Assembly (NCBI GenBank): GCA_019750255.1
Contig: JAIEOU010000011.1
Location: forward strand, 1 to 38,638
Source of the DNA: Patescibacteria group bacterium
Lineage (GTDB): Bacteria; Patescibacteriota; Minisyncoccia; Phycocordibacterales; UBA918
DNA length: 38,638 nucleotides
Direction of reading: 5' to 3'
In this document: positions 6,536 through 8,028 of the stretch, one piece after another
How positions within the stretch are numbered: position 1 is the stretch's first letter
How the letters are laid out: each line of letters begins with the position of its first letter
Made by a program: the position numbers and the translations under genes
Notes under the pieces: generated by a model
Told to the model about the DNA's origin: nothing
The model's input: the letters and a program-made list of their open reading frames with translations, nothing else
Database searches by the model: none

Positions 6536-7435
6536 TTAGACATCCATCTGACGCAGTAAGCGTATACGATCAACGGCGGGAGGGTGAGTGGCAAAGAGGC
6601 CACTGATCTTCTGTCCAATTGATCTCTTCCCTTCTGCAGCATACGGATCGCTGATGAAAAGATGGGCGGTCGCGTGAGAAGCGGTTTGCATAGGTATGTG
6701 CGAGCGGCTGATCTTTTCGAGTGCGGAAGCGAGACCTTCTGGGTAGCGGGTAAGGAGAGCAGCCGTAGCGTCGGCCAGATACTCACGCTTTCGAGAAATA
6801 GCTAGCTGAATAAGCTGAGCCGCGATAGGTGCGAGAATGATACCGGCGATGCCCAAGATAAGGAAAATCGGACTCCGTTCGCGATTATCGCCACCACCAA
6901 ACATAAAGGCCCGTGACAAGAAGTCGGCCAAGATAGCCACAAAGCCCGCGAGTACTACCGCCACCGTCATCACTAGCATGTCGCGGTTCCCAATATGCGC
7001 CATTTCGTGCGCCACCACTCCTTCAAGCTCATTTCTGTCGAGAATCGATAGAAGACCCGTCGTTACCGCCACAACCGCATTCTCTGGGTTGCGCCCCGTC
7101 GCAAAGGCGTTTGGGGACGGGTCCTCCATGATATAGACCTTTGGCATCGGGAGACCAGCGGTAATCGCGAGGTTTTCCACGATGTTATAGAGCTCGGGAG
7201 CCTCGGCTTTCGTTACGGGCTTCGCTCCGGTCATCCGGAGCACGAGCCTGTCTGAAAACCAGTAGCTGTACACGTTCATTCCTAGAGCAAAAATCACGGC
7301 GATATAAACAATGAGTGGATTATTGAGGTACCAGGCAGCGGCGTAGCCAATGGCAATCACTGCCGTCAAAAATCCCGTCATTAGCATGATGGTTTTAAAG
7401 CGATTGCTATCTTGTTGAGTATAGATTGTGGACAT
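6536..7435 (-). CDS. htpX: M48 family zinc metalloprotease HtpX
   Basis: ORF 299 aa; VVAHEMAHIGNRD, NAFATGRNPENAVVAVTTGLL. Confidence 0.92.
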   Translation of the reverse strand: MSTIYTQQDSNRFKTIMLMTGFLTAVIAIGYAAAWYLNNPLIVYIAVIFALGMNVYSYWFSDRLVLRMTGAKPVTKAEAPELYNIVENLAITAGLPMPKVYIMEDPSPNAFATGRNPENAVVAVTTGLLSILDRNELEGVVAHEMAHIGNRDMLVMTVAVVLAGFVAILADFLSRAFMFGGGDNRERSPIFLILGIAGIILAPIAAQLIQLAISRKREYLADATAALLTRYPEGLASALEKISRSHIPMQTASHATAHLFISDPYAAEGKRSIGQKISGLFATHPPAVDRIRLLRQMDV

Positions 7436-7523: not shown

Positions 7524-7651
7524 ACTTTAGGCTCGAGACGGCCCCAGATACAAGGCGTCGAGGAGTAAAATCACGAAGTGTACTAAATTGTACAGTGAGT
7601 GACTTTACGACGAAGACAACGCAGTCGATAGGGTCGTATCGAGTCTAAAGT
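7524..7651. repeat. Nested palindromic intergenic element
   Basis: Outer arms ACTTTAGGCTCGA (7524-7536)/TCGAGTCTAAAGT (7639-7651); inner arms GTAAAATCAC/GTGACTTTAC, CGTCG/CGACG and TGTAC/GTACA. Confidence 0.7.
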
Positions 7652-8028
7652 GGAATGCCCTGAGGGGATTCGTTCGACGAATACCCGACATCATCTGACC
7701 ACATGAGGAAATGTCGGTGTTTGTATGCACCCTTCTTTAGTAGATTGTCTTCTCGGGCCGCACGCAATTCATCGTGAGTGATTTCGAGCTGACCAACTAT
7801 AGTTTCGAGCACAATCATTAAATCAGCGTATTCACCCAAGAACTCTTCCTTCGTGCGGGCCATGGACAATGAAGCCGCCTCTTCCTTGATTTTCTTCATC
7901 AGTTCCTGCTGAAACTCCTGCATGTCACAGACCGGTCGCACTTCGCAATGCTCACCCTTAGATTTAATTTTATCGGGGATGTTATCGCGTACTAATTTGT
8001 TGTAGTAGACGCGCGTAATTTCTGCCAT
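7645..8028 (-). CDS. Nucleoside triphosphate pyrophosphohydrolase, MazG/PRA-PH-like
   Basis: ORF 127 aa; YNKLVRDNIPDKI...KKIKEEAASL...EEFLGEYADLMIVL. Confidence 0.75.
   Translation of the reverse strand: MAEITRVYYNKLVRDNIPDKIKSKGEHCEVRPVCDMQEFQQELMKKIKEEAASLSMARTKEEFLGEYADLMIVLETIVGQLEITHDELRAAREDNLLKKGAYKHRHFLMWSDDVGYSSNESPQGIPL

Follow-up and report, generated by a model that had tools for sequence, protein, structure and literature searches.

A long hairpin abutting a stop codon in a patescibacterial genome is probably one copy of a dispersed, fold-conserved family of mobile palindromes

The 38,638-nucleotide stretch of patescibacterial DNA analysed here (the window) contains a palindrome of about 128 bp between two genes transcribed from the minus strand, and it raises the question of whether this is a repeat element, a structured RNA or an accident of the local sequence. 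A preliminary description, made from the sequence alone, read it as a non-autonomous palindromic repeat (MITE/REP-like) or a structured RNA and recognised no family. The features of the locus are as follows.

7524-7651, plus strand: the whole hairpin element; the folded, G-U-tolerant strand is the plus strand, antisense to both neighbouring genes
7524-7536, plus strand: far outer arm, pairing with 7639-7651; matches the abutting gene's 3' end in inverted orientation
7537-7638, plus strand: conserved core, the 102 positions of covariance model R1
7546-7557, plus strand: conserved 5' internal motif AGATACAAGGCG; columns invariant or nearly so in alignment A2
7565-7608, plus strand: region of the stem 7565-7574/7599-7608 (10 positions), with two-sided changes at most pairs
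7575-7576 and 7597-7598, plus strand: G-A/A-G step
7579-7594, plus strand: apical hairpin TGTAC-TAAATT-GTACA (TGTAC 7579-7583, GTACA 7590-7594)
7617-7629, plus strand: 3' internal motif CAACGCAGTCGAT (family form CAACRMAGTAGAT); columns invariant or nearly so in A2
7639-7651, plus strand: near outer arm; holds the stop codon (CTA at 7645-7647, TAG on the minus strand) and 4 nt of coding sequence
7645-8028, minus strand: abutting gene, host of the insertion (127 aa), a distant relative of phosphoribosyl-ATP pyrophosphohydrolase/MazG-type proteins
6536-7435, minus strand: the following co-directional gene, HtpX (M48 protease), which in congeners follows the same upstream gene

Folding of both strands, a check proposed in the preliminary description, confirms that 7524-7651 is one long genuine hairpin. 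The plus strand folds at -55.9 kcal/mol against a shuffled mean of -28.5 (z -8.3, with none of 200 shuffles as good), and the minus strand at -48.1 kcal/mol (z -6.6). The outer arms pair through 12 Watson-Crick and one G-U pair, the apex is TGTAC/GTACA around a TAAATT loop, and the right arm overlaps the TAG stop of the abutting ORF, all as had been reported from inspection. The small inner arms proposed at the same time (GCGTCG/CGACG and ACGGCCCC/GGGTCGT) are only approximate; the inner pairing with evolutionary support is instead GTC (7557-7559) with GAC (7615-7617) together with the 10-position stem, and conserved G-A and A-G steps separate the helices. The likeness of the abutting gene to MazG, also remarked upon, is present but weak, its matches to PRA-PH PF01503 (E 0.006) and TIGR03188 (E 0.002) both lying below cut-off.

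The genome from which the window derives is CPR-like (0.95 Mb in 16 contigs), and a genome-wide BLASTN search with the hairpin, as had been suggested, gives only one clear match within it. In congeners the inner part has matches of ~74% identity, which lie at unrelated loci and fold into the architecture of the window hairpin with different stem sequences. A covariance model (R1) built from 12 diverged copies identifies about 20 copies in the window's own genome, with a clean gap below them, and scores the window core at 100.7 bits (E 5.9e-24, filters off). In congeners there are from 0 to at least 64 copies; no more than 68 candidates were scored per genome, and the high counts are therefore lower bounds. 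A single-copy accident is ruled out, as BLASTN shows one clear copy yet R1 shows about 20. The preliminary reading would have been refuted by a single-copy sequence without homologues or compensatory changes, but the covariance model that it advised running across CPR genomes finds relatives with compensatory changes: about 20 copies in this genome and hundreds elsewhere, with most pairs compensated. There is no match among 4227 Rfam families for the window copy at E values up to 5, nor for other loci at gathering thresholds, which rules out a known Rfam family and agrees with the earlier remark that none was recognised. No published description of such a family was found in the open-access literature, although this search covers only part of the literature.

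The class-level sampling gives 35 of 286 genomes. Further carriers were located by the DNA pattern of the apical part and then confirmed with R1; these include two Uhrbacteria genomes (62 and 88 matches), Nitrospira (32), another member of the Nitrospirota (22), Troglogloeales (9), Oryzomonas (22) and Saccharibacteria (11), with Kaiserbacteria and other Patescibacteria also confirmed. Pattern matches in Myxococcales, Gemmatimonadetes, Streptomyces and Burkholderiales were not confirmed by R1. Two Myxococcales bins each contain several hairpins (L157 7246-7346 and L163 3890-3990; about -115 kcal/mol) with a GAGGCGTAC..GTACGGTGAG apex as in the family; these are unscored by R1 and are possibly a distant branch. 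A plasmid, phage or viral origin was rejected, there being no match in such sequences. Most of the carriers outside the genus are metagenome bins, but contamination is unlikely in the main carriers because there are many matches per genome, on many contigs. G011 (1.7 Mb, 310 contigs, 7% contamination) is probably a mixed bin, and its 42 matches may stem from more than one organism.

The fold is conserved while the stem sequence changes freely. In a MAFFT alignment of 12 mixed copies (A2) there are two-sided changes at 28 of 33 pairs, 90.4% of cells pair, and the covariation score is 0.686, compared with 0.248 for shuffled and at most 0.153 for slid controls. The 21 ssb-adjacent copies, aligned in the same way, have two-sided changes at 27 of 32 pairs with 91.9% paired, and score 0.729 against 0.228 shuffled and at most 0.147 slid. 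Folding of family copies supplied the structure, which makes the slid control a little lenient, yet the margin is wide. Covariation of base pairs beyond controls is a criterion of structured non-coding RNA that the family meets. In the family, the conserved unpaired or non-canonical parts comprise AGATACAAGGCG, CAACRMAGTAGAT and recurring GA/GA steps that separate short helices.

The strand that folds runs antisense to the gene it abuts. Non-Watson-Crick positions on the modelled strand are G-T rather than A-C in ratios of 54:12, 181:35 and 91:22 in three sets of copies, and the modelled strand has the lower minimum free energy in 120 of 124 copies. The sets overlap in some copies, and the G-T:A-C counts rest on model-fitted alignments whereas the energies do not. 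Since G-T predominates over A-C and the folding energy is better, we infer that this antisense strand is the functional fold, either as RNA or as single-stranded DNA.

Within this genus the copies sit at stop codons. Placement was counted for the 18 of the roughly 20 copies in the window's genome that lie in the 0.79 Mb studied in detail, with genes called as longest ORFs. All but one of these (17/18) point at an oppositely oriented gene, and 12 have a stop codon within -5 to +15 nt of the core end, where random intergenic placement expects 4.9% (p about 3e-12). Thirteen copies lie between co-directional genes and four between convergent genes; some copies are only 24 nt from the start of the next gene, and the abutted genes include housekeeping genes such as ssb, atpD, gyrA and a secY-like gene (names assigned by eye from translations). 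Flanking sequence is not shared from copy to copy. The palindrome does not end at a set distance from the stop codon, its end ranging from -7 to +13 nt among 52 copies, and avoidance of TGA at element-abutting stops (0 TGA against 10% expected) is not significant with these small numbers. The context is more random in the distant carriers (Uhrbacteria, Nitrospirota), where units occur in alternating-orientation clusters.

Comparison of individual loci shows that copies have been gained, lost or swapped between loci among congeners. The MazG-like gene and htpX are adjacent in many congeners, separated by a short spacer without the element, and all 25 relative loci examined lack an element at this position. 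At the ssb locus an element directly follows the ssb stop in 21 of 30 congeners, and most of the others have a short plain spacer. Element identity at this locus does not track SSB identity (Mantel rho -0.21, one-sided p 0.98); G026 and G010, for example, have elements that are 93% identical next to SSBs that are 71% identical, with unrelated outer flanks. Past the ssb stop of G027 (L300) there is a partly palindromic segment of ~100 nt that lacks the motifs of the family and may be a decayed or different element. Several congeners have a further element ~260-415 nt from the ssb stop (L322 2355-2454, L320 2356-2455, L324 800-900, L327 2364-2464 and L319 2207-2307), apparently placed immediately downstream of rpsR, the gene after ssb, so that adjacent genes within an operon can each carry a copy.

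The sister genomes G018 and G019 contain, at one locus with orthologous flanks, two different elements, both starting immediately behind one and the same stop codon; the one in G018 has 79% identity to an element at another G019 locus. Counting this pair, the two genomes have three pairs of similar elements (76-79% identity) at loci that are not orthologous. They also have a tandem pair opposite a single copy, and one orthologous copy that is conserved. The two different elements at the orthologous locus could instead reflect differential loss where the ancestor had a tandem pair. Comparison of the ssb and window copies with the others in the window's own genome gives no pair above about 72% identity, so we see no recent movement there.

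Several near-identical composites of ~270 bp are present in G232, each consisting of ~25-bp terminal inverted repeats, a unit, a linker and a second unit in inverted orientation. These terminal repeats, together with the insertion polymorphism of empty and filled sites, fit the description of a MITE as a non-autonomous repeat with both features. A MITE would further be expected to have a direct target-site duplication and a cognate DDE transposase with the same terminal repeats; no autonomous version with the G232 terminal repeats was seen, only solo or partial copies. In one contig (L360 1501-1533, G232:C30) a solo terminal inverted repeat pair is joined almost directly, as if both inner hairpins had been removed, and in another (L353 ~1425-1455, G232:C15) a short palindrome, CCTGCCTGCCGGTAGGCAGG, belonging to a different repeat family, is inserted within the second hairpin of the composite. 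In a third (L355 after 1770, G232:C26) the composite ends beside a tRNA-like gene, and its terminal repeat holds a GTTCGAATCC-like string resembling a tRNA T-arm.

The junctions provide a clue as to how the outer arms arise. In the element-free congener G003 the gene ends ATTCCACTTTAGACTTGG, and the window gene ends ATTCCACTTTAGACTCGA and then runs into the hairpin. The gene-sense string ATTCCACTTTAGACT of the near arm is present in the G003 empty site, and the near arm thus holds pre-existing gene sequence. The far arm (ACTTTAGGCTCGA) is an inverted match to this near-arm gene sequence and is absent from the empty sites of congeners, and in the ssb copies it varies with the last codon (TTT or TTC) and stop of the ssb gene in the host concerned. 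The data do not distinguish between an insertion process that makes an inverted copy of the target and rapid adjustment of the far arm by selection. A comparison with empty sites for target-site duplications had been recommended: empty sites are available, but no direct duplication was recognised at the window, ssb or G018/G019 loci, the target being matched by the far arm in the inverted sense.

We searched for an enzyme that could move the element. The Y1 transposase domain (PF01797) is absent from the copy-bearing genomes G014, G017, G018, G019 and G020 and present in the copy-free G024, G027, G031 and G033, and the 30 Y1 loci and the reverse transcriptase (RT) genes examined have no unit within 1.5 kb. 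A Y1/RAYT partner was rejected, its presence being uncorrelated with copy number and without proximity to units, as was a reverse transcriptase, RT genes being rare in the genus; with RT genes in only 7 of 35 congeners the criterion for an RT-linked element is not met. The G018 and G019 bins are 97-98% complete and lack both Y1 and RT. From this distribution, the absence of nearby units and the rarity of RT, we conclude that RAYT and RT are unlikely movers, at least in the G018/G019 pair.

Taken together, the window hairpin is probably one copy of a dispersed non-autonomous mobile family of the REP/BIME/MITE type, with ~100-130 bp per unit and a mobilising enzyme that is unidentified. The preliminary alternatives of palindromic repeat or structured RNA were well chosen in light of the copies, the covariation and the lack of an Rfam family, and the mobile-repeat half is favoured because of the empty sites in congeners and the turnover at loci. 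We suggest that the mover would recognise a folded single strand, as ssDNA or as RNA copied back to DNA, through the internal loops and the ladder of G-A steps and not through terminal sequence. Insertion would occur just 3' of a gene, with the folded strand being that gene's template strand, and the far arm would acquire complementarity to the host gene's final codon and stop, either because the target is copied at insertion or through fast compensatory change afterwards. Against mobility, no partner enzyme was found in the Y1 and RT families and no clean direct target-site duplication was seen, and the long-lived purifying pressure on pairing exceeds the needs of a dead MITE. The fuller proposal, of an undescribed multi-phylum element that targets stop codons, is recognised from its folded strand alone through the G-A ladder, extends its hairpin with an inverted target copy and is moved by an unidentified enzyme that is neither Y1 nor RT, is offered tentatively, and we would not expect all of it to stand.

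The main rival is that each copy is a structured non-coding RNA gene, antisense toward the neighbour's 3' end and acting in cis or trans, that has spread by duplication and horizontal transfer. RNA-grade covariation, G-U tolerance on one strand and conserved internal loops with sheared-type G-A steps, which are typical of RNA, all speak for it. We nonetheless consider it unlikely, as the plus strand of the window copy has no sigma-70-like promoter (by consensus scan; there are no RNA data) and no intrinsic terminator, flanks differ between copies with some only 24 nt before the next gene's start, and copy number ranges from 0 to at least 64 within one genus. A 3'-UTR hairpin acting in the sense mRNA, in the manner of E. 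coli REPs located no more than 15 nt from stops that affect translation and mRNA decay, would account for the stop-codon position and the usual location between co-directional genes; a lowering of translation has been reported for REPs at such distances (PMC12306157). However, the sense strand is the one that folds worse in 120 of the 124 copies, with A-C where the other strand has G-U, and many congeners lack the element at the same genes, so this role has little to recommend it.

A classical REP/REPIN mobilised by RAYT (TnpA-REP, Y1 family) would be consistent with the alternating-orientation clusters and paired inverted units, and TnpA-REP is known to recognise ssDNA hairpins by structure (PMC8266576). 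A REP is a 20-40 bp palindrome with a terminal GTAG or CGTC tag (PMC3733652), though, and the unit here is 3-5 times that length, has no recognised tag of this kind, and is neither near Y1 genes nor tracked by their presence, making this very improbable. Most remote are integron attC-like recombination sites with a folded bottom strand at an ORF 3' end: a folded strand antisense to the gene and starting at the stop codon does resemble attC geometry, but the conserved motifs lie mid-hairpin and not in terminal R boxes (by eye), and the copies are dispersed beside housekeeping genes and not in cassette arrays.

Patescibacterial (CPR) genomes are tiny and compact, and some nevertheless hold 60-90 of these 100-base elements. 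The family is conserved in fold and not in sequence, eludes repeat annotation by BLAST (one clear copy by BLASTN against about 20 by R1) and is absent from Rfam. Provided that the findings on strand, stop codons and inverted target hold, it raises a testable question as to how a folded strand can be moved when neither Y1 transposase nor reverse transcriptase is involved, and as to what shapes the 3' ends of genes here.

We place this as a new family of the dispersed mobile palindrome kind, and its relationship to known systems is one of partial likeness. It shares strong covariation and conserved internal loops with Rfam structured RNAs, but differs in matching none of the families searched. 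Integron attC sites are sequence-poor, structure-rich hairpins of the template strand at gene 3' ends, with R boxes containing AAC/GTT where recombination occurs and an IntI integrase; our family is likewise sequence-poor and structure-rich, on the template strand at gene 3' ends, but differs in motif layout (by eye) and is not found in cassette arrays. Like REPs, BIMEs and REPINs, it consists of dispersed intergenic palindromes in many copies, often near stops and in alternating clusters, that appear to be recognised as structure, and it meets the REP/BIME criterion of multi-copy, extragenic units in alternating orientation. It differs in being a single hairpin of 100-130 bp with conserved internal loops, in having a common fold and not a common sequence, and in lacking a constant terminal tag among copies and a Y1 (REPtron) association in the congeners examined, so that it does not qualify as a REP by unit size, tag or Y1 association. 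MITEs (ERIC-like) are non-autonomous intergenic palindromes of ~120-300 bp whose presence or absence varies between relatives. The terminal arms of our family, unlike theirs, are unconserved between copies yet paired, with a far arm that mirrors the target and no direct target-site duplication recognised, but it too is non-autonomous, intergenic and palindromic, differs in presence and absence among relatives, and has terminal inverted repeats in its G232-type form. By these comparisons, the family would seem to work most like REP/BIME or MITE elements.
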